This document shows, in pieces, positions 6,259 through 29,610 of a stretch of DNA of 64,000 nucleotides (position 1 is the stretch's first letter; every line of letters begins with the position of its first letter). The position numbers were made by a program, and so were the translations under genes. The stretch is from Ruania alkalisoli (lineage in GTDB: Bacteria; Actinomycetota; Actinomycetes; Actinomycetales; Beutenbergiaceae): positions 1 to 64,000 of the forward strand of contig NZ_CP063169.1 in the NCBI RefSeq assembly GCF_014960965.1, written 5' to 3'. Under the pieces are notes generated by a model that was given only the letters and a program-made list of their open reading frames with translations, had not been told where the DNA came from and did not search any database.

Positions 6259-6367
6259 CGCACGGACCGCCTGAGGGTTGTGGGATACGTTCCACCGCGC
6301 GCGGGCCGGCGTCCGCCTGCATCGGCTCCAACCGGAGGCGGTGCGGTGGGCGCACTGATGACGATAG

Positions 6368-8419
<2,052 letters not shown>

Positions 8420-8432
8420 GTAAGGAAACTTC

Positions 8433-11024
8433 GTGACAGACGACATCACCCCTATGCCCGGCGACGCGGCGGAAGTCATCACCGATCGCATCGAGCAGGT
8501 CGACCTGCAGCTGGAAATGCAGCGGTCCTACCTCGACTACGCGATGAGCGTGATCGTCAGTCGTGCACTGCCCGACGTGCGCGACGGTCTCAAGCCGGTG
8601 CACCGGCGCATCCTGTACGCGATGTTCGACGGCGGATACCGCCCGGACTCCTCGTTCTCGAAGTGCTCGCGCGTGGTCGGGGACGTGATGGGGCAGTTCC
8701 ACCCCCACGGCGACAGTGCGATCTATGACGCGATGGTTCGCCTCGTGCAGCCGTGGTCGATGCGTTATCCCCTGGTGGCCGGCCAGGGGAACTTCGGCTC
8801 CCCAGGTAACGACCCTGCAGCGGCGCCGCGGTACACCGAGTGCAAGATGGCACCGCTCGCACTGGAGATGGTGCGTGACATCGACAAGAACACCGTCGAT
8901 TTCGGGGACAACTACGACGGGAAGACGCAGGAGCCCACCGTCCTGCCGTCCCGGATCCCGAACCTGCTGGCCAACGGCAGCTCTGGTATCGCCGTCGGGA
9001 TGGCGACCAATATTCCCCCGCACAACTTGCGTGAGCTCGCCGAGGGCGTCCATTGGCTGCTACAGAACCCTGAGGCGACAGCGGAGGAGCTGCTCGCAGC
9101 TCTCTTACAGCGCATCAAGGGGCCCGACTTCCCGACCGGTGCGCAGGTGCTGGGGCTGCGCGGTATCGAGGACGCATACCGGACCGGGCGGGGTTCGATC
9201 ACGATGCGCGCCGTGGTCGAGGTGGAGGAGCTTCAGGGTCGGACCTGCCTGGTGGTCTCCGAGCTGCCGTACCAGGTGAATCCCGACAACCTCGCGTCGA
9301 AGATCGCCGATCTTGTTCGTGATGGGCGTGTGCAGGGAATCGCCGACATCCGCGACGAGACCTCCGGTCGAGCCGGTCAGCGCTTGGTCATCGTCCTCAA
9401 GCGCGACGCGGTGGCGAAGGTGGTGCTGAACAACCTCTACAAGCACACGCAACTCCAGGACAACTTCGGCGCCAACATGCTCGCCCTCGTTGACGGCGTG
9501 CCGCGGACATTGAGCCTGGACGCGTTCATCCGGCACTGGGTCGCGCACCAGATCGAGGTCATCGTCCGGCGCACCGAGTTCTTGCTCAAGCAGGCCGAGG
9601 ATCGCATCCACATCCTGCGCGGGCTCATCAAGGCCCTCGACGCCCTGGACGAGGTCATCGCGCTGATCCGTCGCTCTCCCACGGTGGAGGAGGCGCGTAC
9701 CGGTCTGCGTGAGCTGCTCGGGATCGACGAGATCCAGGCGAATGCGATCCTGGAGATGCAGCTGCGGCGCCTGGCGGCACTCGAGCGGCAGAAGATCCTT
9801 GACCAGTTCAAGGCCCTTGAGGCGGAGATCGCCGACTATCAGGACATCCTCGGTTCTCCGGCCCGTCAGCGCACGATTGTGGGCGACGAGCTGACTGAGA
9901 TCGTCGCTAAGTTCGGCGACGAGCGTCGCACGACGATCCTTCCGTTCGACGGTGAGATGTCCATGGAGGACCTCATCCCGGAAGAGGATGTGGTCGTCAC
10001 CATCACGCGAGGTGGGTACGCCAAGCGCACCCGCACGGACAACTATCGTGCGCAGCACCGCGGCGGCAAGGGTGTGCGTGGCGCCCAGTTGCGCGGTGAC
10101 GATGTGGTGGACCACTTCTACGTGACCACCACCCACCACTGGCTGCTGTTCTTCACCAACCTCGGCCGGGTCTACCGGGCCAAGGCGTACGAACTGCCCG
10201 AGGGTAGCCGCGACTCCAAGGGCCAGCATGTAGCCAATCTGATGGCGTTCCAGCCTGGCGAGGAAATCGCTCAGGTGCTCGATCTGCGCGACTACGACCA
10301 GGCCGAGTACCTGGTGCTCGCGACCAAGAGCGGTCTGGTGAAGAAGACACGGCTGGGCGAGTACGACTCCTCACGCACGGGTGGTGTGATCGCGATCAAC
10401 CTGCGCGAGAACGGATCCGGGGAGCTGGACGAGGTCGTGGCCGCCCGGTTGGTGAACTCCGACGACGATCTGCTGCTGGTCTCCCGGAAGGGGCAGTCGT
10501 TGCGCTTCAGCGCCACCGATGAGGCGTTGCGACCGACAGGTCGGGCGACCTCCGGCGTCACGGGCATGAAGTTCCGTGAGGACGATTCGCTGCTGTCGAT
10601 GGACGTGGTGCGCGAAGGCTGGGACCTGTTCGTCGTGACCGAGGGTGGCTTCGGCAAGCGCACCCGGGTGGACGAGTACCGGGTGCAGGGTCGCGGTGGT
10701 CTCGGCATCAAGGTGGCCAACCTGGTCGAGGCGCGTGGTGATCTGGTGGGCGCACTGATCACCGGCGAGGACGATCAGGTGCTCGTGATCATGGAGAAGG
10801 GCAAGATCGTCCGCACGGCGGTCTCCGAGGTCAACCTCACCGGACGCACCACTCAGGGCGTGACGTTCGCGAAGCCGGACGCCGGGGACCGCATCATCGC
10901 GATCGCCAGGAACGTGGAAACAGCAGTGGAGGACGAGGTCGAGGCATCGGCCGACAGTACCGAAGGTGCTCCTGATGGCGTACCGTCGGGCGAGTCCCCA
11001 GCTGATGGGCAGGAAGAGAGCTGA
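8433..11024 (+). CDS. gyrA: DNA gyrase subunit A
   Basis: Breakage-reunion subunit of gyrase. The 863-residue product has the winged-helix start [20 protein letters not shown], the quinolone-resistance region [15 protein letters not shown] with Ser and Asp at the E. coli 83 and 87 positions (the sensitive-type residues), and the catalytic Tyr in [10 protein letters not shown]. The C-terminal beta-pinwheel carries a GyrA box written QHRGGKG rather than the usual QRRGGKG. The tail is acidic and Ser-rich. Start is GTG 8433 behind AAGGAAA, 13 bases after gyrB. The stop codon overlaps the next start by one base (TGATG), so the DUF3566 gene belongs to the same operon. Confidence 0.98.
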
Positions 11025-11677
11025 TGAGCGAGCAGACTCCGCGGCCGACCACACCTCCGGTGCGCACCTCCACGAAGACCTTCCAGCCCGGTGAGCGACG
11101 CGCACCGAGCGTGCAGCCGTCGCGCGTGGACATGCCCACCCAGCAGCAACCGGCAACGGTTCCTCCGGCTGGTGGTCAGTCGCAGCCACAGCCGGCTCAG
11201 TCGCAACAGCCCTCGCAGGGCAGGCAGCAGCATGGCGCACGGCAGGGCGACTCCTCGGCAACCCCTGGTCGGGCAGCCGGGGCCGCGAGTGCGAGTGAGT
11301 CGAAAGTCGACAGCGGCCCGCGCCGGGTACGGTTGGCGATCTCCCGCGTGGACCCGTGGTCGGTGATGAAGTTGTCGTTCCTGCTCTCCATCGCGATAGG
11401 GATCGGGATCGTCGTCGCCACTGCGGTGGTGTGGGGTGTACTGAACTCCATGGGCGTGTTCTCCCAGGTTCAGAGCCTGATCGATGAAGTCGGAGCGATG
11501 GCCCAGTTCGGAGGTCTGCTGGAGTACGTCGAGTTCTCCCGGGTGATCTCGGTGGCGACCGTGATCGCGATCGTAGACGTCATCCTGCTGACAGCCCTGG
11601 CCACCCTCGGCGCGTTCATCTACAACTTGGTGGCGGCCATGGTCGGCGGGTTGCACCTGACCCTCACCGACGACTGA
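11024..11677 (+). CDS. DUF3566 membrane protein
   Basis: Actinobacterial membrane protein of unknown function, nearly always found directly after gyrA. Of 217 residues the first ~95 are Pro/Gln/Ser-rich and probably disordered in the cytoplasm. The DUF3566 domain begins around RRVRLAISRVDPWSVMKLSFLLS and contains two hydrophobic segments, one before the GVLNSMGVF region and one in the C-terminal VATVIAIVDVILLTALATL stretch. ATG 11024 overlaps the gyrA stop. Linkage to gyrase is conserved across the phylum, but no mechanism is established, so I give only the family. Confidence 0.9.
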   Translation: MSEQTPRPTTPPVRTSTKTFQPGERRAPSVQPSRVDMPTQQQPATVPPAGGQSQPQPAQSQQPSQGRQQHGARQGDSSATPGRAAGAASASESKVDSGPRRVRLAISRVDPWSVMKLSFLLSIAIGIGIVVATAVVWGVLNSMGVFSQVQSLIDEVGAMAQFGGLLEYVEFSRVISVATVIAIVDVILLTALATLGAFIYNLVAAMVGGLHLTLTDD

Positions 11678-12042: not shown

Positions 12043-12115
12043 GGGGCCGTAGCTCACCAGGTAGAGCGCCGCTTTTGCAAGGCGGAGGTAAGGGGTTCGA
12101 GTCCCCTCGGCTCCA
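12043..12115 (+). tRNA. tRNA-Ala (TGC)
   Basis: A 73-base cloverleaf. Acceptor GGGGCCG (12043-12049) pairs with CGGCTCC (12108-12114) including one G-T wobble, and the discriminator is A. The anticodon loop is TTTGCAA with anticodon TGC, and the T-arm contains GGTTCGAGTCC. The restriction-modification island starts directly after it. Confidence 0.97.
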
Positions 12116-12151
12116 CCCACCAAGGTCCATGTTGTGGCAGGATCCGTGACG

Positions 12152-13201
12152 ATGAGTGAAAACCTGCCCGACCAGGAGACCGAGCGAACTTTTGTCGGCT
12201 GCGTGCGAGAGATGCTAGCTCGACCCGACTTCCTGATTCCGCTCGCTGCCGCAGAACGTCAGTATCGTGATCACTACTACGGTCTCAACTCGGCTGCGCT
12301 TCTGGAAGATCTATTCTTCGATGCGCTCGGCAACTTCGTCCGGCAGACCCGTCCCGACGTTGGTCTGAGGCGACCACCCACTGGCCAGAAGGGCTGGGAC
12401 TACGACTTCAACGGACTCCGCATTTCACACAAGGTGAGCCAGAACATCAGTGCGGTTGCGGCGCTCTGGGACGCAACCAGGCAAGACCTCGCAACGTGGT
12501 CGTTCGATGAGCCGATTACGTATGTGCTAGGTGGCAACACACCACCGACGCAGGTGCGGCTCGTGCTCGGTGACGGTACCGAGATTCGTTGTCGCGCCGC
12601 CGCCAGTCTCACCCCAACCTATCGCCTCGATGGACGGAGCCTGATCGTTGTCAGGTGGCCAAGCTCCGGATCGCAACCATTGCTGCTCAGAGTGGTCGAT
12701 CTTGTGTCAGCTGTCCAAGTGCGTGAGGCGCTGCCGTTTGGGGAACTTTGGGATCTCATCGCCGACCATGTGAGTTCAGGCGGGCCAGCCAACGATATCG
12801 ACGTGCTCGTCACGAACCGTCGGACTTCTCCTTCGGAACGAGCTGCTCTCAACCACGCGCTGGGTAGTGACCCAAGCGTCGACATCTCAGTCCCGATGAG
12901 AAGCGGTGTCTACATCCTCAGCAGAGATACCCTGCAGGATCTGCGCGTTGAGACGAACAACCGTGCTGTCCTGATACCCAAGGATACGGTTGCCGGACTC
13001 CTGACGGAGGCAGTGCTGAGGAGCAACTTCATATCTCTGCCACTTTGGTACTGGGCCTACGCCGAACCCAGGCCCCCAGACATGTACCTTTCACAACGCT
13101 TGGAATATGACGGGCTCTTCAGCGCTCGACGCCAGGATCGGCGGCTGTCGAGGGCCGAATCAACATCAGAGGATTCCGCCGACTGGTCCAGTTCGACGTG
13201 A
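12152..13201 (+). CDS. Candidate type II restriction endonuclease
   Basis: A 349-residue protein I do not recognise by sequence. It is called a candidate restriction enzyme because it stands 46 bases upstream of a C5-cytosine methyltransferase on the same strand and followed by vsr remains. A possible PD-(D/E)XK-like core is visible: a helix with E52-D53, then WDYDF at residues 82-86 and ISHK ending at K94, where the usual acidic residue before Lys would be Ser. The rest is mixed alpha/beta with no membrane segment. ATG 12152 has GGCAGGA 9 bases upstream; GTG 12134 is possible. Codon use includes more AT-ending codons than the origin genes, consistent with transfer. Function is inferred from context. 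Confidence 0.55.
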   Translation: MSENLPDQETERTFVGCVREMLARPDFLIPLAAAERQYRDHYYGLNSAALLEDLFFDALGNFVRQTRPDVGLRRPPTGQKGWDYDFNGLRISHKVSQNISAVAALWDATRQDLATWSFDEPITYVLGGNTPPTQVRLVLGDGTEIRCRAAASLTPTYRLDGRSLIVVRWPSSGSQPLLLRVVDLVSAVQVREALPFGELWDLIADHVSSGGPANDIDVLVTNRRTSPSERAALNHALGSDPSVDISVPMRSGVYILSRDTLQDLRVETNNRAVLIPKDTVAGLLTEAVLRSNFISLPLWYWAYAEPRPPDMYLSQRLEYDGLFSARRQDRRLSRAESTSEDSADWSSST

Positions 13202-13247
13202 CACCACGACGCGGCTGCTTGCGTACAGACGTTCGAGCTGGCAACCT

Positions 13248-14723
13248 ATGACTATGGATCAGACTGTCGGAGACCCGCGAGCTACCTTTCGCTACATCGA
13301 CCTGTTCGCTGGCATCGGGGGCTTCGCAGCGGCGCTCGAGGGCTTCGGCGGTGAGTGTGTGTACTCAGTCGAGATCGACGAGGCTGCGGCCCAGGTCTAT
13401 GAACGCAACTGGGGTCATTCGCCGCTAGGCGACATCACCCGAGACTCGAACGACGTGGTGATGAACGTCCCGGCGCACGACTTGCTTGCCGCCGGATTTC
13501 CATGCCAACCGTTCTCCAAGTCAGGCGCGCAGCGCGGGATGGACGAGGCTCGTGGCACCCTGTTCTGGAACATCATGAAGATCATCCAGGCCCATCACCC
13601 CACGATGGTGCTCCTCGAGAACGTCCGAAACCTCGCTGGTCCACGCCACCGACATGAGTGGGACGTAATCATCGCCAGCCTGCGGGACGAGGGCTACCGC
13701 GTCTCTGAGCAGCCGGCTGTCTTCTCGCCGCATCTCCTTCCTCTCGAGTTGGGCGGGAGGCCGCAGGTTCGCGAGCGGGTCTTCATCTCGGCAACGTTTG
13801 ATCCGGACGGAGTGCTCGACGGCGTCCCGGCACTGCCCCCACTTCCGAACCTCACGCTTCGCGGGCCAGAGGAATGGGATCTGATTGCGGATCTCCCGGT
13901 TGACCTCGACTTCCACGCGGACTCGATCCAGTTGTCCTCGAACGAGGTCGAGTGGATCGACGCCTGGGAGGACTTCGTCGTAACGATGTGGAAGCATATT
14001 CAGCGCGCGACGCCGGAAGGAGCGAGAGCAGCGCTGCCGGGATTCCCCATCTGGGCTGACCACTGGGTGAAGGTTGAGGACCTCGACGGTTGGATAGCGG
14101 GTGGCCCCACCCCCTACCGTCCCGTCGCAGCCTTGCCGTCGACATGGGTTGAGGTACCACGGTGGAAACAGAACTTCCTGAGGAAGAACGCGGCCTTCTA
14201 CACGCGCTTCAAAGCACAACTGGACCTCTGGAAGGTCCGCCACGACATCGAGCGCTTTCCAGCGTCTCGTCGCAAACTTGAGTGGCAAGCACAGGACGCT
14301 GCACGGCTTTGGGACTGTGTCCTGCAGTTCCGGCCGTCCGGCATCCGCGCCAAGCGACTCACGCACCTGCCTGCGCTTGTTGCGATAACTCAGACATCGA
14401 TCATCGGGCCGCTTCGCCGCCGCTTGAGCACACGGGAGGCTGCGCGTCTGCAGGGTCTGCCTGACAACTTCGACTTCGGGACGCAGAGTGACGCTGCGAC
14501 CTATAGGCAGTTGGGGAACGGTGTGAGCGTAGGGGTGGTGTGGAACATACTGCGGGCACACGCGAATCGGGACGCGGCGATCCTCAGGACCACCGATGTG
14601 GGCCGAGTCCTACTACAGGCACTGGTCGACGACGCCCCGAAGAGCCCAGATGACGTCCTCGAATCTGCCGTTGTAGCTGGCCAGCGACGATTCGAGGAGT
14701 CGATGCTGCCTGTCGCAGTATAG
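13248..14723 (+). CDS. DNA (cytosine-5-)-methyltransferase
   Basis: Transfers a methyl group from SAM to C5 of cytosine, protecting DNA from the partner nuclease. Motifs appear in order: I DLFAGIGG (residues 18-25), IV PCQPFS with the catalytic Cys at 86, VI ENV, VIII QVRERVF, IX RLQGLPDNF and X QLGNGVSVGV. The 491-residue length includes a large variable region of about 250 residues between motifs VIII and IX, the target-recognition domain, so the target site cannot be read. ATG 13248 and ATG 13254 are both possible starts; the ribosome site is weak. No broken motif is seen, so the enzyme is probably active. It is the middle gene of the island. Confidence 0.93.
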   Translation: MTMDQTVGDPRATFRYIDLFAGIGGFAAALEGFGGECVYSVEIDEAAAQVYERNWGHSPLGDITRDSNDVVMNVPAHDLLAAGFPCQPFSKSGAQRGMDEARGTLFWNIMKIIQAHHPTMVLLENVRNLAGPRHRHEWDVIIASLRDEGYRVSEQPAVFSPHLLPLELGGRPQVRERVFISATFDPDGVLDGVPALPPLPNLTLRGPEEWDLIADLPVDLDFHADSIQLSSNEVEWIDAWEDFVVTMWKHIQRATPEGARAALPGFPIWADHWVKVEDLDGWIAGGPTPYRPVAALPSTWVEVPRWKQNFLRKNAAFYTRFKAQLDLWKVRHDIERFPASRRKLEWQAQDAARLWDCVLQFRPSGIRAKRLTHLPALVAITQTSIIGPLRRRLSTREAARLQGLPDNFDFGTQSDAATYRQLGNGVSVGVVWNILRAHANRDAAILRTTDVGRVLLQALVDDAPKSPDDVLESAVVAGQRRFEESMLPVAV

Positions 14724-14728
14724 GAATC

Positions 14729-15191
14729 ATGGACGCCATGCTCCCGAAGCCCCAGCAGGTCGCTGAGCATCCTGGACCGTCTTCGCCAGGCGCCTCGCAG
14801 CGAATGAAGGCGGCGAAGCGATGCGATACGGCGGCCTAACTGGCGCTTCGTGCTGAGTTGCACCCGCGCGGAGAAACGTACCGCGTCGCCTATCCCGTGC
14901 CCTCGGCACGTCGTCGAACGATCGACGCTGCCTCTTCACCCGCGCACATGTGGCCGTTTTCGTCGACGGCTGCTTTAGGCACCGGTGCCCTATGCACGGT
15001 ACCGAACCACGTTCGAACAGCGGTTGGTGGAAGGCGAAGTTGAACGCCATTGACTCGAGACCGTGACACGGGCCATCTGCTGAAGGAGCAGGGGGTGGAG
15101 TGTCGTCCGTGTGTGGGAGCACGAAGCGCCAACTGATGTCGCGGACCGTGTAGTCGCTGAGCTTCGGAGCAGGCGACCGTGGCGTACCTAG
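14729..15191 (+). pseudogene. vsr: Degenerate vsr (very short patch repair endonuclease)
   Basis: Translating this stretch across frames rebuilds a full Vsr protein of about 154 residues in the normal order. The first frame gives SQRMKAAKRCDTAA, a TAA stop at 14837-14839 where a Glu codon is expected, then LALRAELHPRG and YRVAYPV. From about 14935 a second frame gives FTRAHVAVFVDGCFRHRCP and NSGWWKAKLNA. From about 15056 a third frame gives RDRDTGHLLKEQG, and from 15111 a fourth gives VWEHEAPTDVADRVVAEL. So there is one nonsense codon and three frameshifts. The active-site block reads DGCFRHRC instead of the family DGCFWHGC, a further sign of decay. Vsr nicks T:G mismatches made by deamination of 5-methylcytosine, and vsr genes commonly sit beside m5C methyltransferases, exactly as here. 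It ends 14 bases before the stop of the convergent LacI gene. Confidence 0.88.
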
Positions 15192-15205
15192 TGTGCCTGA
15201 CTCGT

Positions 15206-16213
15206 TCAGTCCCGGGTCGACCCGCGCTCGACCAGCCGCACCGGACTGACCAGATGCTCGGCCTCGCTGGGCGGGTCGTCGCCCATCCTGGCCTGGAGCA
15301 GCCGGACCGCGTTGTCGACGATCCAGTCGCTGCTGGGATCAACGCTGGTCAACTCGGGATAGATGTGTGCCCCGATCTCCAGGTTGTCGAAACCGACCAC
15401 CTGGACGTCCTCGGGAACCTGGCGCCCCACATCGCGCAGGCCGGCGAGAGCCCCGATGGCGACGTCATCGGTCACGCCGAAGACGCCGTCGATACCAGGA
15501 TCCGCGGCCACAGCCGCGGCGACCGCTCTGCGTGCGTGGGCGATGTCCAGCTGGGTCATGTGAAGAATGAGGCTCTCGTCGGCCTGGATTCCCACCTCGT
15601 CATGGGCCCTCAGCCAGCCGAGTGTGCGTGCGCGGGACATTCCGAGCGCGTCCTGGCCCCGCTGTCCGCCGGCGATCAGCACTCGTCGCGAGCCGCGGTC
15701 GAGCATGTGCCTCACTGCCAGCCGCGCTCCCTCGACATTGCCCATCATCACGTGGTCGAAGCGCGCCGGAACCTCTCGCTCCCCCAGCAGCACGATCGGG
15801 ATCGAGTCGCGGATCCTGTCCAGCTCTGCTTCCCGCAGGCCCACCACACTGAAGATCGCGCCGTCGTACATATGCAGCCGTGCCAGCGAGAGCGCCGAGA
15901 GCTCCCCTTCCGGGCTTGCCGTCGTCTGCTCGATCACCACCTGCCGCCCCAGGTCTGCGATCGCTCGCGCCACCCGGGCTCCCAGCGCCCCGAAGTAGGC
16001 GTGGTCGAACTGCGGGACCAGCAACGCGATGGAGCCGCTGCGTCCGTACCGCAGGTTCCTGGCGGTGAGGTTCACCTGGTAGTCCAGCTCTGCCACTGCC
16101 CGCAGCACCCGCTCCCGGGTCTCGGGACTGACTCGGCGGCGGCCGCTGAGCACATTGGAGACCGTCATCACCGACACCCCGGCAGCCCGGGCGACATCGG
16201 TCATGGTGGTCAT
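15206..16213 (-). CDS. LacI-family transcriptional regulator
   Basis: Sugar-responsive DNA-binding repressor or activator, 335 residues, usual for the family. The N-terminal helix-turn-helix is TMTDVARAAGVSVMTVSNVL with the hinge-proximal segment YQVNLTARNLRYGRSGSIALL; the rest is a periplasmic-binding-protein-like effector domain ending with VDPSSDWIVDNAVRLL. ATG 16213 has a weak ribosome site; the next Met, three codons in, is also possible. It lies 41 bases downstream of a second LacI gene on the same strand, so the two may share a transcript. Most likely it controls one of the nearby rhamnoside cassettes; this rests on position only. Confidence 0.9.
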   Translation of the reverse strand: MTTMTDVARAAGVSVMTVSNVLSGRRRVSPETRERVLRAVAELDYQVNLTARNLRYGRSGSIALLVPQFDHAYFGALGARVARAIADLGRQVVIEQTTASPEGELSALSLARLHMYDGAIFSVVGLREAELDRIRDSIPIVLLGEREVPARFDHVMMGNVEGARLAVRHMLDRGSRRVLIAGGQRGQDALGMSRARTLGWLRAHDEVGIQADESLILHMTQLDIAHARRAVAAAVAADPGIDGVFGVTDDVAIGALAGLRDVGRQVPEDVQVVGFDNLEIGAHIYPELTSVDPSSDWIVDNAVRLLQARMGDDPPSEAEHLVSPVRLVERGSTRD

Positions 16214-16254
16214 GTGTGGTCCGTTCCGTCGCGGCTCCGTGCTCGGGGACGAGC

Positions 16255-17400
16255 CTATTCTGTCGTCGTTCCCCGGTGCGGAGCGGGGGCGGTGGAGCCA
16301 CGCACCCGGAGGTGGACCTGCTCCTCGACCTGGACGGACTCGGTCCGGCCCGCGATCCTCTCCAGCAGGAGGCGAACCGCCTCGGCTCCGATGCGCGTCC
16401 CCGACTGGTCCACGCTGGTCAAGGACACCAGTGGATGACTGGCCATCGTGATGTCGTCATAGCCGACCACGGAGACGTCCGCCGGACCCAGGCCTGCTTC
16501 GGCTACGGCACGCAGGGCGCCCATCGCGAGCGTGTCGTTGCCGGCGAAGATCGCGGTGGGGGGCTCACGTCTGGCCAGGAGCTCCGCCGCGGACGACTGG
16601 GCCTCCAGCTCATCCCCCCCGGTGTACAGGACCTCCGGTTCCAGGCCCCGACGGCGCATCTGCTCGGTGTAGACCGTGTGCCGGATGGCGTGCGGTTCAC
16701 GCCCCGAACGCTGCCAGTCGGTCGGATCGTCCACCAGGATGTGCTCACGGGCATTGTCGATCGTCAGATGAGTGATGCGAGAGTGGCCGAGATCGAACAG
16801 GTGGGCCATCACCTGATCGGTTCCCGACCGGTCCGCCCCTGCCACGGTGTCGTAGTGCGTCGATACGTCGTGGCGGCCGATGATGACCACGGGGATTCGG
16901 TCACTGAGCGCTTCCAGCCACGCCTCACCGACCATCGGGGAGATGGCGATGATCCCGTCGACCTGCCTGTCGGCGAGGCTCTGCAGCGCGTTACCGGTCT
17001 CGTGCGGGGCGGTGACGGGTGCGACCACCAGTTGGTACGGCGTCCCCACGAGAGTCTCCAGTGCCCCACGCACGATCATCGTGAGGAACTCGTTGCTCAC
17101 CTGGGCGATCTCGATCCCGAGCGTGTGCGAAGGCCCGCGCATGGCTCGTGCCGCTACCCGGGGACGGTAGCTGAGCTGAGCGATGGCGGCCTCCACCTTG
17201 CTGCGCATCTGCGGGCTGACCCCGTAGGCGTTGCGGATGACCTTGGAGACGGCGGCGCGGGAGACCCCGGCCGCGTCTGCCACGTCCTGAATGGTTGCGT
17301 TCCGCGGCGCGGCTCCGAGCGAGGTGCTGTCGCCGTGGCCGGGGTGGACCAGTGATGCCGGCCCTTCAGTGGCGTCGTTGCCACGATCTCTGGTGTCCAC
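16255..17400 (-). CDS. LacI-family transcriptional regulator, divergent from rhamnoside cassette 1
   Basis: A 381-residue LacI-type regulator with helix-turn-helix ATIQDVADAAGVSRAAVSKV starting near residue 35, then the ligand domain (HTLGIEIAQVSNEFLTMIV onward, ending QVHLRVRGSTAPAP). The 34 residues before the HTH are not typical; the true start may be further in than the GTG at 17400. It is divergent from the SBP gene at 17534 with 133 bases between, the usual arrangement of a local sugar regulator and its target operon, so it probably senses the transported rhamnoside or rhamnose. No operator could be assigned with confidence. Confidence 0.88.
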   Translation of the reverse strand: MDTRDRGNDATEGPASLVHPGHGDSTSLGAAPRNATIQDVADAAGVSRAAVSKVIRNAYGVSPQMRSKVEAAIAQLSYRPRVAARAMRGPSHTLGIEIAQVSNEFLTMIVRGALETLVGTPYQLVVAPVTAPHETGNALQSLADRQVDGIIAISPMVGEAWLEALSDRIPVVIIGRHDVSTHYDTVAGADRSGTDQVMAHLFDLGHSRITHLTIDNAREHILVDDPTDWQRSGREPHAIRHTVYTEQMRRRGLEPEVLYTGGDELEAQSSAAELLARREPPTAIFAGNDTLAMGALRAVAEAGLGPADVSVVGYDDITMASHPLVSLTSVDQSGTRIGAEAVRLLLERIAGRTESVQVEEQVHLRVRGSTAPAPHRGTTTE

Positions 17401-17433
17401 AGGTCACAGGCTAGTACCAATTGTGTAGATCGG

Positions 17434-17462
17434 TTGACGAACGCGGATCGTGCCACCTATCG
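17434..17462 (+). promoter_or_regulatory. Candidate promoter of rhamnoside cassette 1
   Basis: TTGACG at 17434-17439 and CTATCG at 17457-17462 are separated by 17 bases and lie about 70 bases before the SBP start. The -35 is good, the -10 moderate. Confidence 0.4.
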
Positions 17463-17512
17463 TCGACCCTGAAAGGATTCAGCGACGTGCGCAGAATGAC
17501 CTGCCGCACTGT

Positions 17513-17530
17513 CTTTGCGAGGAGGCAAAG
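17513..17530 (+). promoter_or_regulatory. Hairpin presenting the Shine-Dalgarno in its loop (SBP copy 1)
   Basis: CTTTGC (17513-17518) and GCAAAG (17525-17530) form a perfect 6-bp stem around the loop GAGGAG, which is the ribosome-binding site of the ATG at 17534. The same structure precedes the second SBP copy at 27372-27389. Confidence 0.55.
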
Positions 17531-17533
17531 CAC

Positions 17534-18841
17534 ATGATCCCCAAGACGTCCCGACGGCACTTCGGTGCCGGGGTGGCAGCCGCGGCTGCAGCTGCGCTCG
17601 CACTCTCGGCCTGCTCCGGTGGAGGAGATGATGACGGCAGTGTCGAGATCACCTTCCTGTCCACATCGGATGAGGACAACACCGCGCTCGCCGAAGCGCT
17701 GATCGACGCATTCGAGGCTGAGAACCCCGACATCACGGTCAATCTCGATGGCCGGCCCGGAGGCACCGAGGGCGACAACCTCATCAAGACCCGGCTGGCC
17801 ACGGGCGAGATGGCCGAGGTGTTCAACTACAACTCCGGATCGCTGTTCCAGGCACTCAACCCGGACCAGAATCTGCTCGAACTCAGCGACCGGCCGTGGG
17901 CGGATTCGCTCACGGACGACTTCACCTCGGTGGTCAGCACCGAGAACGGCCTCTATGGCGGCTCCTATGGCAGTTCCTTCGCCGGTGGCATCGTCTACAA
18001 CGGCGCGATCTACGACGAGCTCGGACTCGAGGTCCCGCAGTCGTGGGACGACTTCATGGCCAACAATGAGCAGATCGCCGCAGCCGGGTACGACCCGATC
18101 ATCCAGACCTACGGCGACACCTGGACCAGCCAGCTCTTCGTCCTGGGCGACTACGCCAACGTCCACGCGCAGGATCCGGACTGGGCTGACCAGTACACCG
18201 CGCACGAGCGCTTCTATGCGGATGAGCCGGCCCTCGCCGGCTTCCGGCACCACCAAGAAGCCTATGAGTCCGGCTACTTCAACGAGAACTACCCGTCGGC
18301 CACCTTTGAGGACGGCGGTGCCATGCTCGCCGAAGGCACCGGGGTGCACTATCCGATCCTGACCACGATCCTCAGCTCCATCCGGTTCAACCACCCGGAC
18401 GCAGTGGAGGACATGCGCTTCATGGCCATCCCCGCCGATGACCCGCAGTACACCTCCGCCACGATCTGGCAGCCGGACGGTCTGTACATCCCGAACACCG
18501 TCGAGGGTGCTGAGCGGGATGCTGCCCTGGCATTCGTGGACTTCGTGACGGGTCCGGACGCATGCGAGGTCTTCATCGAGGCCGTCAATCCCACCGGGCC
18601 CTACGTCAACGGTTGCGAGCTTCCGGCGGATGTTCCTCCGCTCGTCCAGGATGTGCAGTCCTACTTTGACGCCGGCAACACGGCACCGGCGCTGGAGTTC
18701 CTCTCCCCCATTAAGGGCCCGAACCTGGAGAACATCACCGTCGAGGTCGGCTCCGGTATTCGTGGAGCTGAGGAAGCCGCGGCGAACTACGACCGCGATG
18801 TCGAGAACCAGGCACGGCAGCTGGGCCTCGAGGGCTGGTGA
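17534..18841 (+). CDS. ABC sugar-binding lipoprotein (rhamnoside cassette 1)
   Basis: Extracellular solute-binding protein, family 1, that captures the sugar for the two permeases behind it. The 435-residue product begins with a signal of the type SRRHF...LALSAC; the lipobox Cys is residue 27 and a GGG spacer follows, so it should be membrane-anchored. The Arg pair before the hydrophobic core could also suit Tat export. The mature part starts VEITFLSTSDEDN. ATG 17534 is fixed by the GAGGAG site in a hairpin loop. The stop overlaps the first permease by 4 bases (GTGA). It is closely similar along its whole length to the protein at 27392-28696. The exact ligand is inferred from the linked rhamnosidase. 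Confidence 0.9.
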   Translation: MIPKTSRRHFGAGVAAAAAAALALSACSGGGDDDGSVEITFLSTSDEDNTALAEALIDAFEAENPDITVNLDGRPGGTEGDNLIKTRLATGEMAEVFNYNSGSLFQALNPDQNLLELSDRPWADSLTDDFTSVVSTENGLYGGSYGSSFAGGIVYNGAIYDELGLEVPQSWDDFMANNEQIAAAGYDPIIQTYGDTWTSQLFVLGDYANVHAQDPDWADQYTAHERFYADEPALAGFRHHQEAYESGYFNENYPSATFEDGGAMLAEGTGVHYPILTTILSSIRFNHPDAVEDMRFMAIPADDPQYTSATIWQPDGLYIPNTVEGAERDAALAFVDFVTGPDACEVFIEAVNPTGPYVNGCELPADVPPLVQDVQSYFDAGNTAPALEFLSPIKGPNLENITVEVGSGIRGAEEAAANYDRDVENQARQLGLEGW

Positions 18842-19755
18842 CCGCTGCAACCACCGAGGTGCGGGCCGGCAGGTCTCGCAAGGCCCGCACCTCGGGCGTC
18901 TCCCGTCACGCGTATCCGCTGTGGTTCTACCTGCCTGCGGCGGTGTTGTTCCTGGTGTTCTTCGCGATCCCGACGTTCGCCTCGTTCTACTTCAGCCTCA
19001 CGCGGTGGACGTTGTTCGACCAGGAGTTCATCGGATTCGAGAACTACGTCCAATTCTTCCGTGAGCCGCAGCTCTATCAGGGCTTCATCAACACCTTGAT
19101 CTACGGGTTCCTCACCTCTGGGCTGAAGGTCGTGATCGGACTGGCGTTGGCGGTACTCCTGACCTCCGCGCTGGTGGGGCGGCACTTCCTGCGGTCGGTG
19201 ATCTTCTTCCCGGTGCTCGTCTCCACAATCGGGGTCGGGATCATGTTCAAGGCGCTGCTCGACCCCTTCGACGGGATGGTGAACGGGGCGTTGGAGACGC
19301 TCGGTATCACCGGCCCGGGATGGTTGACCGATCCGGACCTGGCGCTGTACTCGATCATCGGGATTGATGTGTGGAAGGGCCTGGGCATCGCATGCCTGAT
19401 CTACATCGCCGGTCTCGTGGCGATCCCGACCGAGTACTACGAAGCGGCGCGGGTGGACGGTGCGAGCAAGTGGGCAGCCTTCAAGAGCATCACCTTGCCG
19501 CTGGTCAAGCCAGCGACCGGGACGGTGATCATCTTGTCGCTGATCGGCGGATTGCGTTCCTTCGACCTGATCTGGGCGACCACCGGTGGTGGGCCTGGCT
19601 TCAGTTCGGATGTAATCGGGTCGGTGATCTACAAGCAGTACCAGGCCGGCTTCTACGGTCTGTCGACCGCCGGGAACGTCGTGCTCTTCGTGGTGGTGAC
19701 GGTGATCATGGTGCCGATCTCGCTGATGCTGAACAAGCGGGAGGTCGAGCAGTGA
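18838..19755 (+). CDS. ABC sugar permease, inner-membrane subunit 1 (cassette 1)
   Basis: Membrane subunit of a carbohydrate-uptake ABC transporter (CUT1, MalF-like), 305 residues. Six hydrophobic segments are seen, the first at FYLPAAVLFLVFFAIPTFA. The cytoplasmic EAA loop that contacts the ATPase reads EYYEAARVDGASKWAAFKSI. GTG 18838 overlaps the SBP stop by 4 bases; its own stop overlaps the next permease by 4 bases. No ATPase gene is present in the cassette, so a shared MsiK-type ATPase encoded elsewhere is likely, as is common for actinobacterial CUT1 systems. Almost identical to 28693-29610. Confidence 0.93.
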   Translation: MTAATTEVRAGRSRKARTSGVSRHAYPLWFYLPAAVLFLVFFAIPTFASFYFSLTRWTLFDQEFIGFENYVQFFREPQLYQGFINTLIYGFLTSGLKVVIGLALAVLLTSALVGRHFLRSVIFFPVLVSTIGVGIMFKALLDPFDGMVNGALETLGITGPGWLTDPDLALYSIIGIDVWKGLGIACLIYIAGLVAIPTEYYEAARVDGASKWAAFKSITLPLVKPATGTVIILSLIGGLRSFDLIWATTGGGPGFSSDVIGSVIYKQYQAGFYGLSTAGNVVLFVVVTVIMVPISLMLNKREVEQ

Positions 19756-20585
19756 GGCGTGAACGCACCATGCGGTGGGTGCTGGGCATCGCCGCGATCG
19801 CGGTATCCATCGTGATCTTCATCGTCCCCTTCATCTTCATCGTGCTGCAGGCGATGAAAACTCGTCAGGAAGCCTCCGAACTGGCCTTTTCGTGGCCGAG
19901 GCAGCTGGCATTCGTGGAGAACCTCATCGAGGTGATCACCCAACGCGACTACATCGTGGCCCGGGCGTTCCTGAACTCCACGATCCTGACCGTGGCCAGT
20001 GTGACCCTGCTGGTAGTCATCGCCGCCATGGTCGGCTATGTGATGCAGCGGCGCGCGTCCAAGATCCGCACGGTGGCGAACTTCTTCGTCCTGGCCGGTC
20101 TCATCATCCCCCCGGCAGTGGTCCCGACCGTATGGGTGCTGCAGAGCCTGGGACTCTTCGGAACACTGCCTGGTCTGATCCTGATCGAGATCACCTTCGG
20201 ACTCGCATTCTCGATCCTGTTGTTCCGGGCGTTCGTGAGCACCATCCCCCGGTCGTTGGACGAGGCGGCGATCATCGACGGTGCCAGCCCGTTCCGATTG
20301 TTTTTTGCGGTGATCATGCCGCTCATGAAACCCACAGTGGTCACGGTCATCGTCGTGCAGTCGGTGCAGATCTTCAACGACTTCGCCAACCCCTTGTACT
20401 TCCTCCCGGGGGACGACAACGCCACGGTGCAGCTCACGCTCTACAACTTCCAGAGCCAGAGCAACAACCAATGGAACCTGTTGTTCATGGACATTCTGCT
20501 GATCACGATCCCCCCGTTGGTCATGTACATCTTCTTCAACCGCCAGATCGTCGCCGGCATGACATCCGGCGCCGTCAAGGGCTGA
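19752..20585 (+). CDS. ABC sugar permease, inner-membrane subunit 2 (cassette 1)
   Basis: Second CUT1 membrane subunit (MalG-like), 277 residues, with an N-terminal transmembrane segment (WVLGIAAIAVSIVIFIVPF) and the EAA loop SLDEAAIIDGASPFRLFF. GTG 19752 overlaps the preceding stop (GTGA). The frame is open about 380 bases further upstream, but that part is a shadow of the first permease. The GH78 gene follows after 28 bases, so transport and hydrolysis are one operon. Closely similar to 29607-30440. Confidence 0.93.
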   Translation: MRRERTMRWVLGIAAIAVSIVIFIVPFIFIVLQAMKTRQEASELAFSWPRQLAFVENLIEVITQRDYIVARAFLNSTILTVASVTLLVVIAAMVGYVMQRRASKIRTVANFFVLAGLIIPPAVVPTVWVLQSLGLFGTLPGLILIEITFGLAFSILLFRAFVSTIPRSLDEAAIIDGASPFRLFFAVIMPLMKPTVVTVIVVQSVQIFNDFANPLYFLPGDDNATVQLTLYNFQSQSNNQWNLLFMDILLITIPPLVMYIFFNRQIVAGMTSGAVKG

Positions 20586-20613: not shown

Positions 20614-23415
20614 ATGAGTTCTCGCGTCACCCGGGTGCGGGTGGAACGACGCAATGACGCTGCCTTGGCAGATGTCCCCTCACCTCGGCTGAGCTGGGTG
20701 GTGGAGTCCGACGAACCGTGGCAGCAGGCCGCTGCTGAGGTACGCCTCGATGGTGGCGAGACGGTCCGGCTGGACACCAGTGAGTCGGTCTTCGTGGACT
20801 GGCCGTTCGCGCCGCTGGCCCCGCATTCTCGCCACGAGCTTCAGGCACGCGTCACCTCCACCGACGGCGTCACCACCGACTGGTCCGAGCCGGTTGCGGT
20901 GCGTAGCACGTTCCTGGCCGACGGCGAGTGGCGTGCTTCGTTCATCGGCCTCTCCGAGCCTGAGGGTGAGGCGTGCCCGGGACGGGTGCGCGCGGAGTTC
21001 CAGGTCCGGGGTCAGGTCCGTGCCGCCACGTTGTACGCCACGGCCGGCGGCGGCTATCAGGTCAGCATCAACGGCGCCGACGTCGACGATGCTGTCCTCA
21101 AACCCGGGTGGCGGGACTATCACGAGCGTCTCGTGCATGAGGCCACCGATGTCACGGGCTTGGTGCGCGAGGGATCGAATGCGATCGGGATCCGGTTCGC
21201 CGGTGCGTGGTGGACTGAGAAGTTCGGGTTCCATGGCGCCGCCAAGCGCATCTACGGTGACCAGCCGGTGGTCGCTGCACAGCTCCAGATCGAGTTCACG
21301 GACGGCTCGACCCAGGTGATCGGGACGGACGGGACGTGGCGAGGGGCCGCCGTCGGGGAGCTGACGGCGAGCAGCATCTATCAAGGTGAGGCGATCGATG
21401 GCCGGCGCGCCCTGGCGGGCTGGGATCAGGTGGGCTTTGACGACGCCACCTGGCCGGACGCCGTCGTGCAGGATCTGGGCGTGGTTCCCGAGGCAGACCC
21501 GGCCGAACCGGTGCGGCGCGTGGGTGAGGTCGCCGTGGCCGAGGTGATCCGGACGCCGTCCGGCAAGACGATCCTGGATTTCGGGCAGAACCTGGTGGGT
21601 TGGCTGCGGGTGCGGGTGAGGGGTCCGGAAGGCCACGTGATCACGGTGCGCCATGCCGAGGTGCTCGAGCACGGTGAGCTCGGGGTGCGGCCGCTGCGGC
21701 ATGCCCAGGCCACGGATACCTTCGTCTGCTCCGGTGGGGACGATGTGTTCGAGCCGGAGTTCACCTTCCATGGGTTCCGGTATGCCGAGATCGAGAACTG
21801 GCCGGAGGAGTTCGATCCGGAGGTTGATGCCGCAGCCTTCACCGCCGTGGTGATCAGCAGCGATATGCGGCGCACGGGCTGGTTCGAGTGCTCGGACGAG
21901 CGAGTGAACCGGCTGCACGAGAACGTCGTGTGGGGGATGAAGGGCAACTTCGTCTCGATCCCCACCGACTGCCCGCAGCGGGATGAACGGCTCGGCTGGA
22001 CCGGCGATATCCAGGTGTTCTCGCCGACCGCCACGTCGCTGTTCGACAGTGACGGGTTCCTGACCTCGTGGTTGCGGGATGTGGCGCTCGAGCAGGCCAG
22101 GAGTGGCGGGATCTGCCCGTTCGTGGTGCCGAGTGTGCTGGGGGAGTCGCAGGCCGCGGCTGCGTGGGGCGATGCGGCCACGGTGGTGCCGATGGTGCTC
22201 TTTGAACGCTTCGGTGACCGGGCCGCGTTGGCCGAGCAGTACCCCTCGATGAAGGCATGGGTGGATGTGCTGGCCGGGCTGGCCGGGGAGCGGCTGCTGT
22301 GGGAGGGCGACTTCCAGTTCGGTGACTGGCTCGACCCGGCGGCACCCCCGGACCAGCCGGGCGGTGCGCGCACCGACTCCGACATCGTGGCCAGTGCGCA
22401 CGTGGTCCGTTCGGCTGCCCTGGTGGCGAAGGCTGCGGACCTGCTCGGGTTCCCCGAGGACGCCGCGCACTATCGCGACTATGCCGAGCGGGCCCGGAAG
22501 GCGTGGGTGCGCGAGTACGTCACGGGCGCGGGCCGGATCGTCTCGGACTCCCAGACCGCGTACGCCATGGCGATCTCCTACGGACTGCTCGATGCCGCGA
22601 CCACTCAGGCGATGGGGGACCGGCTGGCCGAGATCGTGCGCCGGGACGGGTACGTGATCGGAACCGGGTTCGTGGGCACGCCGATCATCGCGGATGCGTT
22701 GTGCGCGACCGGTCACGCCGACGCGGCCGGACGGTTGCTGTTGCAGACGGGGGTCCCGTCGTGGCTGTATGCGGTGACCATGGGAGCCACCACGATCTGG
22801 GAGCGGTGGGACTCGATGCTCCCCGACGGGACCATCAACCCCGGAGAGATGACCTCCTTCAATCACTACGCCTTCGGCGCGGTGGCGGATTGGTTGCACC
22901 GGGGGGTGGCAGGACTGGCCCCCGAGGCGCCGGGCTATGCGCGCCTCCGGATCGCGCCGACCCCGATCGAGGGGCTCGAGCACGCCTCGGTGCGGCGTGA
23001 GACGCCGTACGGGTTCGCTGAGTCTGGGTGGGCCGAGGTTCGCGAGGGCAGGCTGCGGGTGCATGCACTGGTCCCGGCCAACACGACGGCGGAGGTCGCC
23101 CTGCCGGGCCAGGATCCGTTCGAGGTGGGGCCGGGTAGGCACGAGTGGGAGGTGGAGGACCCGCGATCCTCGACCTCGGTAGGCTCGATCGGGTGGGACA
23201 CCCCGCTCGGCGCGATCGTCGACGATCGGCGTGCGCATGAGGCACTGCTCGCCGAGGCCGCGGCGATCGATCCGGGCTTCGGAGACCGGTTGCGCCGGGA
23301 TACCGACTGGCGTGACGGGCAGCATCTGGCCGGCACCCTGCACGGGGTCACCGGTGAGGTGCGCAATCAGATTCCGGCGATGTTCGAGCGGGTGAACGCC
23401 GCGCTCGCGGGCTGA
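20614..23415 (+). CDS. Alpha-L-rhamnosidase, GH78 (cassette 1)
   Basis: Releases terminal alpha-L-rhamnose from plant glycosides or oligosaccharides by an inverting mechanism. The 933-residue protein has N-terminal beta-sandwich parts, then the (alpha/alpha)6 barrel with the family signature DCPQRDERLGWTGD; E458 in it is the expected general acid, and E730 in IWERWDS is a candidate base. No signal peptide, so it acts in the cytoplasm on imported rhamnosides. Compared with the copy at 30462-33062 it has an extra C-terminal tail of about 70 residues (from about GSIGWDTPLG) that is not part of the catalytic fold. A strong hairpin terminator follows the stop. Confidence 0.93.
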   Translation: MSSRVTRVRVERRNDAALADVPSPRLSWVVESDEPWQQAAAEVRLDGGETVRLDTSESVFVDWPFAPLAPHSRHELQARVTSTDGVTTDWSEPVAVRSTFLADGEWRASFIGLSEPEGEACPGRVRAEFQVRGQVRAATLYATAGGGYQVSINGADVDDAVLKPGWRDYHERLVHEATDVTGLVREGSNAIGIRFAGAWWTEKFGFHGAAKRIYGDQPVVAAQLQIEFTDGSTQVIGTDGTWRGAAVGELTASSIYQGEAIDGRRALAGWDQVGFDDATWPDAVVQDLGVVPEADPAEPVRRVGEVAVAEVIRTPSGKTILDFGQNLVGWLRVRVRGPEGHVITVRHAEVLEHGELGVRPLRHAQATDTFVCSGGDDVFEPEFTFHGFRYAEIENWPEEFDPEVDAAAFTAVVISSDMRRTGWFECSDERVNRLHENVVWGMKGNFVSIPTDCPQRDERLGWTGDIQVFSPTATSLFDSDGFLTSWLRDVALEQARSGGICPFVVPSVLGESQAAAAWGDAATVVPMVLFERFGDRAALAEQYPSMKAWVDVLAGLAGERLLWEGDFQFGDWLDPAAPPDQPGGARTDSDIVASAHVVRSAALVAKAADLLGFPEDAAHYRDYAERARKAWVREYVTGAGRIVSDSQTAYAMAISYGLLDAATTQAMGDRLAEIVRRDGYVIGTGFVGTPIIADALCATGHADAAGRLLLQTGVPSWLYAVTMGATTIWERWDSMLPDGTINPGEMTSFNHYAFGAVADWLHRGVAGLAPEAPGYARLRIAPTPIEGLEHASVRRETPYGFAESGWAEVREGRLRVHALVPANTTAEVALPGQDPFEVGPGRHEWEVEDPRSSTSVGSIGWDTPLGAIVDDRRAHEALLAEAAAIDPGFGDRLRRDTDWRDGQHLAGTLHGVTGEVRNQIPAMFERVNAALAG

Positions 23416-27391: not shown

Positions 27392-28696
27392 ATGAACACA
27401 ACTCCCTTTCGACGCAGAACTGGCATGGTCGCGGCTACCGCCGCCGCTGCCCTCGTTCTAGCCGCATGCTCTGGCGGTGGTAGTACTGACGGAACCGTCG
27501 AGATCACGTTTCTCACGAGTGCCGGTGACCTGAGCACCGCCACCGGGGAGGCATTGATCGAGGCTTTCGAGGCCGAGAACCCCGACATTGTGGTCAACCT
27601 GGACACCAAGCCCGACGGCACTGACGGTGACAATCTCGTCAAGACACGCTTGTCTACTGGAGAGATGGCGGACGTCTTCATGTATAACTCTGGATCGTTG
27701 TTCCAAGCGCTGAATCCGGAGCAGAATCTCGTAGAGATGAGCGACTTTGCGTTCGCGGACTCGCTCACGGACGATTTTGTCTCCGTCGTCAGTACGGAGA
27801 ATGGCCTGTATGGCGGTGCATACGGGGCGTCACTGGCGGGAGGGATCGCCTATAACGGTGCGATCTACGATGAACTCGGCCTGGAGGTCCCGGAGTCGTG
27901 GGACGACTTCATGGCGAACAATGAGGAGATCGCTGCGGCGGGCTATGACCCGATCATCCAGACCTATGGGGACACGTGGACCGCTCAACTCTTCGTGCTC
28001 GCTGACTTCGCGAACGTCAACGCCGCGGACCCTGAGTGGGCGCAGGGGTATACGGCGCACGAGAAGTTCTACGCGGAACAGCCTGCGCTGGCTGGCTTCG
28101 TGCACCACCAGGAGGCCTATGAGGCTGGGTATTTCAACGAGAACTATCCCTCGGCCACATACGAGGACGGGGCGCGGATGCTCGCCGAGGGCACGGGTGT
28201 GCACTACCCGATTCTGACCGGCGTGATGGACACCATTCGAGCCAACCATCCGGATGCTGTCAGTGATATTCGATTCATGGCACTGCCTGCCGATGACCCG
28301 GCGAACACCTCGGCCACGATCTGGCAACCGAGCGGCGTCTACATCCCGCAGACCACTGAGGGTGAAGAGCGTGAGGCAGCTCAGGCGTTCGTGGAGTTCG
28401 TGAATAGTACTGAGGCCTGTGAGATCTTCACCGCGCAGGGGGCGCCGACCGGTCCGTATGTGAACGGTTGCGAGCTTCCCGCTGATGTGGATCCGTTGGT
28501 TGCGGATGTGCAGGCGTACTTTGATTCTGGGAGGACCGCTCCAGCGTTGGAGTTCCTCTCCCCGATCAAGGGCCCGAACCTCTCCCAGATCACGGTTGAG
28601 GTGGGCTCCGGTATCCGGGGCGCTGAGGAAGCCGCGGCGAACTATGACCGTGATGTGGAGAACCAGGCTCAGCAGCTAGGCCTCGAGGGCTGGTGA
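27392..28696 (+). CDS. ABC sugar-binding lipoprotein (rhamnoside cassette 2)
   Basis: Paralogue of the SBP at 17534. 434 residues with signal MNTTPFRRRTGMVA...LVLAAC, lipobox Cys at 26, followed by SGGGS. The mature part VEITFLTSAGDLS and long stretches such as YGDTWTAQLFVLADFANV match copy 1 closely, including the C-terminal end ENQAQQLGLEGW. ATG 27392 is fixed by an AAGGAG site in a hairpin loop. Unlike copy 1 there is no LacI gene next to it; the upstream neighbour is the P450 on the same strand, 127 bases away, so readthrough from the P450 operon is possible. Its stop overlaps the permease by 4 bases. Confidence 0.9.
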   Translation: MNTTPFRRRTGMVAATAAAALVLAACSGGGSTDGTVEITFLTSAGDLSTATGEALIEAFEAENPDIVVNLDTKPDGTDGDNLVKTRLSTGEMADVFMYNSGSLFQALNPEQNLVEMSDFAFADSLTDDFVSVVSTENGLYGGAYGASLAGGIAYNGAIYDELGLEVPESWDDFMANNEEIAAAGYDPIIQTYGDTWTAQLFVLADFANVNAADPEWAQGYTAHEKFYAEQPALAGFVHHQEAYEAGYFNENYPSATYEDGARMLAEGTGVHYPILTGVMDTIRANHPDAVSDIRFMALPADDPANTSATIWQPSGVYIPQTTEGEEREAAQAFVEFVNSTEACEIFTAQGAPTGPYVNGCELPADVDPLVADVQAYFDSGRTAPALEFLSPIKGPNLSQITVEVGSGIRGAEEAAANYDRDVENQAQQLGLEGW

Positions 28697-29610
28697 CCGC
28701 TGAGGCCACCGAGGTGCGGGCCGGCAGGGTTCGTCAGGTCCGCACCTTGGGCACTGTTCGCCATGCGTATCCGCTCTGGTTCTACCTGCCCGCGGCGGTG
28801 TTGTTCCTGGTGTTCTTCGCGATCCCGACGTTTGCGTCGTTCTACTTCAGCCTGACCCGCTGGACGTTATTCGATCAGGAGTTCATCGGGTTGGAGAACT
28901 ACGTCCAATTCTTCCGTGAGCCGCAGTTGTATCAGAGCTTCATCAACACGTTGATCTACGGGTTCGTCACCTCGGGGTTGAAGGTGGTCATCGGTCTGGC
29001 GTTGGGAGTGCTGCTCACCTCGGCGCTGGTGGGGCGCAACTATCTGCGGTCAGTGATCTTCTTCCCGGTGCTGGTCTCCACGATCGGTGTGGGGATCATG
29101 TTCAAGGCGCTGCTGGACCCTTTCGATGGTGTGGTCAACGGGGCCTTGGAGACTCTCGGGATCACAGGTCCGGGATGGCTGACGGATCCGAGTCTGGCGT
29201 TGTTGACGATCGCTGGGATCGATGTGTGGAAGGGCCTGGGGATCGCCTGCCTGATCTATATCGCCGGCCTGGTGGCGATCCCGACCGAGTACTACGAGGC
29301 CGCCCGGGTCGATGGGGCGAGTAGGTGGGCAGTGTTCACATCGATCACGTTGCCGCTGGTCAAACCAGCGACCGGCACGGTGCTCATCTTGTCCTTGATC
29401 GGTGGGCTGCGTTCGTTCGACCTGATCTGGGCGACCACCGGTGGCGGGCCGGGGTTCAGCTCGGACGTGATCGGGTCGGTGATCTACAAGCAGTACCAGG
29501 CCGGGTTCTATGGCTTGTCCACCGCCGGCAACGTGGTTCTGTTCCTCGTGGTGACCGCGATCATGGTCCCGATCTCACTGATGCTGAACAAGCGGGAGGT
29601 CGAGCAGTGA
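28693..29610 (+). CDS. ABC sugar permease, inner-membrane subunit 1 (cassette 2)
   Basis: CUT1 membrane subunit of 305 residues, same length as its copy at 18838 and nearly identical in sequence. Differences are concentrated in the first 20 residues and around TDPSLALLTIAGIDVW. Hydrophobic segments and the EAA loop EYYEAARVDGASRWAVFTSI are conserved. GTG 28693 overlaps the SBP stop by 4 bases, and its stop overlaps subunit 2 by 4 bases, reproducing the junctions of cassette 1. The ATPase must come from elsewhere in the genome. Confidence 0.93.
   Translation: MTAEATEVRAGRVRQVRTLGTVRHAYPLWFYLPAAVLFLVFFAIPTFASFYFSLTRWTLFDQEFIGLENYVQFFREPQLYQSFINTLIYGFVTSGLKVVIGLALGVLLTSALVGRNYLRSVIFFPVLVSTIGVGIMFKALLDPFDGVVNGALETLGITGPGWLTDPSLALLTIAGIDVWKGLGIACLIYIAGLVAIPTEYYEAARVDGASRWAVFTSITLPLVKPATGTVLILSLIGGLRSFDLIWATTGGGPGFSSDVIGSVIYKQYQAGFYGLSTAGNVVLFLVVTAIMVPISLMLNKREVEQ

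Follow-up and report, generated by a model that had tools for sequence, protein, structure and literature searches.

The stretch at 14729-15191 (+) of the window is almost certainly a vsr pseudogene. It makes up V in a minimal Type II R-M-V cassette and lies beside a methyltransferase gene (M) that is intact. The genome of Ruania alkalisoli consists of one contig of 4.45 Mb and was scored 100% complete; its first 64 kb make up the window. The remnant begins 5 bp after the methyltransferase gene and keeps its full length from ATG to TAG, broken inside. Vsr proteins nick DNA beside the T of T:G mismatches that arise by deamination of 5-methylcytosine, and the intact ancestor of this gene would have done so at mismatches from deaminated 5-methylcytosine made by the neighbouring M. 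Gene loss of this kind, with an R-M-V cassette losing its V, is ordinary, and the case here is a clear one. What our analysis adds is modest: a clear anatomy, a sister genome in which the site is almost empty, and the finding that vsr has been damaged repeatedly at loci of this methyltransferase family. Since the Pfam Vsr model misses the remnant, routine annotation probably leaves an empty gap in its place. A literature search returned no title that describes an intact methyltransferase accompanied by a vsr pseudogene.

Similarity of the region to Vsr proteins

The earlier note had read a complete Vsr order across frames in this stretch and had proposed a similarity search against Vsr proteins as a check. 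As tblastn queries we used 23 Vsr proteins out of actinobacterial loci L001-L030, picked by Pfam Vsr; seven of the 30 loci contributed no query, having been missed by the motif filter. Matches to 14729-15191 at E <= 1.6e-5 were obtained with 21 of the 23 queries (best linked E 1.9e-18), and the remaining ones were weak (L007, E 0.037; L004, E 0.051). An HMM of 142 positions, made from the same 23 proteins, scored the stretch alone at 31.8, 52.8 and 27.4 bits in three frames, compared with a top score of 5.9 bits in 1000 dinucleotide shuffles. In a search of the whole window the three blocks scored 23.2, 43.9 and 19.0 bits, and no further Vsr HMM match above 8 bits was found anywhere in it. The order across frames is thereby borne out. 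By tblastn and HMM, the Vsr motifs follow each other on the plus strand in three blocks, each in its own frame, at about 14768-14917, 14929-15060 and 15084-15176; these span HMM positions 4-52, 55-98 and 106-137, which means that the similarity extends across the whole protein.

The first block shares its frame with the ATG at 14729 and the last one with the TAG at 15189-15191, so both ends of the old vsr survive, and the gene is of full length and broken inside. The Pfam Vsr model (PF03852) sees the middle block only and weakly (E 0.041, 14.2 bits, below the cut-off of 27), hence no Pfam Vsr match was obtained in the whole genome. A score below the cut-off is expected for a gene split over frames, and we file the remnant as a pseudogene and not as a working member of the family.

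Lesions and extent of decay

The remnant does not form a single open reading frame. It contains an in-frame TAA at 14837-14839 (+), at a position where at least 90% of 37 uninterrupted Vsr proteins have Glu, and this nonsense codon was already reported correctly in the earlier note. Three frame changes accompany it, all on the plus strand. The first is placed at 14917-14935 by the edges of the tblastn and HMM blocks. The second lies at about 15045-15056: the HMM block ends at 15060, and RDRDT (15056-15070), which was set by eye on conserved R-D columns and has no HMM match of its own, is read in another frame from 15056. The third, at about 15084-15096, overlaps a run of G, and the last block starts at 15084 or 15093. 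The note had named three frameshifts as well; their number and the sites of the first (near 14934) and second (15052-15056) stand, but the third is not at 15110, since GWSVVR, from 15093 on, already reads in the final frame.

The active-site block (DGCFWHxC...HG) is present with its W replaced by R, while no other column of the block with at least 90% conservation is changed. The W-to-R change falls in a column that is W in at least 90% of the 37 proteins and is real; a G-to-R change in the same block, likewise ascribed to decay at first sight, is natural variation, FWHRC being read also by the Vsr proteins of L011 and L016. A further conserved column is changed from R to T. Altogether 22 of the 26 covered conserved columns are kept and four are broken, one of which (N to I) adjoins a frame change and may stem from the alignment. 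When each of the 37 uninterrupted proteins was left out in turn, between zero and four of 28-30 columns were broken (none or one in 28 of 37, four in 3 of 37). The identity of the remnant to other Vsr proteins is slightly below the expectation based on the methyltransferase, with a mean residual of -0.07 and 3 of 21 uninterrupted proteins lower still, and this divergence is only a weak signal of decay.

From the vsr start codon a product of only 36 codons can be read. With the nonsense codon, the three frame changes and the lost conserved Trp, a working Vsr protein is not expected. The gene is inactivated by its lesions yet little eroded, and its loss is probably recent. As a separate observation, the remnant holds a perfect 14-nt inverted repeat (14841-14854 and 15118-15131) that could be due to chance or be a trace of template switching. 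It was set aside as a cause of the lesions (about 0.06 such pairs expected by chance in 3.3 kb, a rough estimate).

The neighbouring genes and the layout of the cassette

Three genes of the same direction form a cassette of about 3.1 kb between a tRNA-Ala and a lacI-type gene. The left border is the tRNA-Ala (tgc) at 12043-12117 (+), identified with ARAGORN; here the sister genome matches as far as 12119. On the right, the match resumes at 15213, within a gene for a LacI-type regulator at 15206-16213 (-) with the Pfam domains LacI and Peripla_BP_3. The first gene of the cassette encodes a restriction endonuclease candidate (R) of 355 aa at 12134-13201 (+), with GTG 12134 as start and ATG 12152 as a possible one. 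It is followed by the gene for the cytosine-C5 DNA methyltransferase (M) at 13254-14723 (+), starting with ATG 13254 or possibly at 13248. Nothing other than R, M and the vsr remnant is present between the two borders, and the whole reads as a minimal Type II R-M-V cassette with V broken.

The earlier statement that the adjacent m5C methyltransferase looks intact holds. M matches PF00145 with E 9.5e-70 over positions 1-322 of the 324 of the profile, and the motifs DLFAG, PCQ, ENV, QVRER and GNGV were all found. Its best PADLOC model is DruM (E 6.8e-190); this label comes from methyltransferase similarity alone, and no companion Druantia gene was found inside the cassette from tRNA-Ala to lacI. 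Among plasmids, 4185 records match M, every best place being below 60% identity, and two of them cover at least 80% of M.

R gave no sequence match in Pfam, NCBIfam, PADLOC or PDB. Its homologs adjoin the same methyltransferase family at 5 of 76 loci, and in a class-wide search of 394 genomes they occurred in three genomes besides its own. A methyltransferase match is present in seven of eight stretches with an R homolog, among which L187 has the sequence of L064 and L188 a partial, weaker match; L189 has none. In viral contigs no relative of R could be confirmed, and plasmids yielded none. The blocks conserved among the R homologs are present in R itself. An AF2 model of R (6 sequences, mean pLDDT 80) was aligned structurally with 3ndh, which we take to be ThaI (CGCG), at Z 14.4 over 162 residues with 15% identity, and with NaeI (1ev7) at Z 9.9 over 140 residues with 8% identity. 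SwaI followed at Z 8.4, and SfiI and EcoRV at Z 6-7, a level that the unrelated Rep15 also reached. Foldseek returned nothing at E <= 0.001 and listed 3ndh first (E 0.07). Because EcoRV and Rep15 appear together at Z 6-7 and Foldseek gave no match at that threshold, the case for a nuclease fold rests on the top rows, by which the modelled R resembles the PD-(D/E)XK fold of Type II restriction endonucleases. Residues E58, D89 and S98-H99-K100 are invariant in six R homologs, and as a putative active site they were placed by eye. R may belong to an endonuclease family not yet described, which has invariant residues near KGxDY and SHKV.

vsr at related methyltransferase loci

For a comparison with related loci, also called for in the earlier note, 79 loci were surveyed: 75 methyltransferase loci and four from genomes of the same family (L032, L142, L143 and L144). 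L144 is identical with L065, which leaves 78 distinct loci. The Vsr HMM matched at 44 of these; at the other 34 no Vsr match was found within the stretch examined, a number inflated by short contigs. An uninterrupted vsr proved to be common, with the match in one frame at 40 of the 44 loci, as judged by the frame alone. The layout of the window, with vsr at most 1 kb downstream and on the methyltransferase strand, recurs in 13 of the 44, and 11 of these 13 copies are uninterrupted. The remnant thus lies at a place where relatives carry vsr.

Damage to vsr was seen at four of the 44 other Vsr-bearing loci of the methyltransferase family. The copy of Cellulomonas cellasea (L055) has a stop and a frame change, that of Xylanimicrobium pachnodae (L067) has lost its front, and that of Arsenicicoccus cauae (L092), located 1.6 kb away, has stops and a frame change. 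In Aeromicrobium stalagmiti (L066) vsr is open at 6262-6645 (-) with a changed DGCFWHxC block, and its Vsr, as far as the sequence can tell, is likely inactive without a broken frame. The methyltransferase frame is open at all four loci. In Nocardioides ungokensis (L098) an uninterrupted copy at 8422-8826 is accompanied by a second Vsr match at 10918-11315 (-), which is split over two frames.

The nearest uninterrupted Vsr (PF03852) copies are those of Sanguibacter hominis (L033) and Pseudactinotalea terrae (L065), both over the Pfam cut-off. They share the motif order with the remnant and are similar in length. In L033, as in the window, vsr directly follows the methyltransferase gene, and its Vsr and methyltransferase are 57% and 67% identical, respectively, to those of the window. 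Unlike these two copies, the one in the window carries the stop and the three frame changes and has lost the Trp, and one protein is impossible. In E. coli, vsr follows the dcm methyltransferase gene, as stated in a portion of PMC12907096. Compared with dcm-vsr, the methyltransferase of the window is not solitary, being paired with a restriction endonuclease candidate, and its vsr is broken. The same portion of that article mentions strains that have cytosine methyltransferase genes and no vsr-like gene (PMC12907096); the window likewise has a methylation gene without a working vsr, but here the remnant is still visible.

Alternative explanations

We regard it as very improbable that vsr is intact in the organism and that the breaks are errors of sequencing or assembly. 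Such errors would fit the G run that one frame change overlaps, as well as the good conservation of the remaining vsr sequence. Yet four separate lesions fall within 463 bp, while the neighbouring frames of 1.07 kb and 1.47 kb and that of the lacI-type gene are open, and conserved columns are affected by substitutions too (W to R, R to T), in a complete genome assembled as a single contig. There is next to no chance that the breaks are real and bypassed by recoding, with a Vsr protein still being made: nothing was found in favour of it, a single short gene would require three shifts and a stop readthrough, the active-site block has lost its Trp as well, and the Vsr match is one uninterrupted frame in the great majority of related loci (the 40 of 44 given above).

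It is just as hard to believe that the region codes for a gene on the minus strand, or for nothing, and resembles Vsr by chance. Minus-strand open frames of 131 and 150 aa do exist (14727-15122 and 14890-15342), but the 131-aa frame has no Pfam match, and the similarity to Vsr is far above that of the shuffles, at the very place where related loci carry vsr. A vsr pseudogene accounts for the region, and dispensability may be the cause of the loss. R and M stay open and conserved, a pattern to be expected were restriction and self-protection still under selection and Vsr not needed.

Methylation and mismatch repair in the genome

The genome encodes one PF00145 methyltransferase, which is M, and it encodes NucS, whose activity includes T:G mismatches. 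A search for MutS_V gave no match in the genome, and two partial DUF559 matches were obtained. An active M would be the genome's sole PF00145 source of m5C, with no dedicated Vsr to serve it. The earlier note had supposed that the host carries methylation without its matched T:G repair. Part of this can be kept, as vsr is decayed beside an intact M and the genome has no other Pfam Vsr match; the host need not be without T:G repair, however, given that NucS is encoded. Methylation of the host DNA is suggested by the intact M, and 5-methylcytosine, if any, would be left to general repair such as NucS. One could go further and propose that Vsr is expendable in the R-M-V cassettes of actinobacteria that rely on NucS and not on MutS/MutL, that NucS deals with T:G mismatches well enough for vsr to be lost repeatedly and independently after transfer while R and M persist, and that the window has caught one such loss midway; we consider this generalization rather unlikely.

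In Neisseria gonorrhoeae, inactivation of vsr leads to a mutator phenotype according to a part of PMC6116569. A footprint of C-to-T changes was sought in about 192 kb aligned three ways (own genome G000, sister G300, outgroup G301) with changes polarised, in 69 motif-position tests on palindromes of 4, 5 and 6 bases with at least four changes each. No excess of C-to-T changes in the own lineage was found at palindromes, the smallest one-sided p being 0.07, uncorrected, with limited power (4436 own-lineage changes), and the test gave no clue to the recognition site of M. The missing footprint may mean that the loss is too recent, the sample too small, the site something other than a simple palindrome, M silent, or that NucS provides cover, and the data do not tell which. 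Among the 4-base palindromes AGCT had the highest C-to-T rate, at 53 of 408 sites in one lineage and 70 of 426 in the other. We rejected it as a methylation site, as it is high in both lineages and other contexts (TACG) come near it when counted per C; the frequency of C-to-T at AGCT may be a codon effect.

The consequences for a genome of keeping an m5C methyltransferase and losing Vsr are an old question, for which the window offers a natural setting in a NucS lineage. A test of methylation without Vsr could make use of the single PF00145 gene, the lack of another Pfam Vsr and a close sister without the cassette.

Insertion site and sister genome

The sister genome (G300) has 99% identity in GyrA and 91-95% in the flanking DNA. 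In a comparison with 17 genomes of named organisms, the closest GyrA was that of Pseudactinotalea terrae, at 82%. In it only about 100 bp separate the tRNA-Ala from the lacI-type gene, compared with 3.1 kb here, and neither blastn nor tblastx gave a match to the cassette at this site. On the simplest reading, the cassette was inserted in the lineage of the window; the alternative is that it was lost from G300 and not gained here. Within the genus, M occurs in two of eight genomes, the own one included, the second copy being 60% identical and located elsewhere in its genome, and Pfam Vsr matches were found in none of the eight.

A tRNA-Ile and a tRNA-Ala are present downstream of gyrA in all seven congener stretches. 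Three other congeners have different open frames at the spot after tRNA-Ala, and the right border was not located in the stretches from the last three. The length of this spot near gyrA (12118-15213 in the window) differs across L134, L135, L136 and L137, with about 0.1, 1.4, 0.6 and 3.4 kb, as in a small variable insertion spot. Further downstream, the surroundings of 16231-19756 and of 27427-29610 match the same part of G300 (94% and 78%), which makes these two gene clusters of the window related to each other. A solute-binding protein is encoded in the first, after which comes an alpha-L-rhamnosidase gene at 20614-23415.
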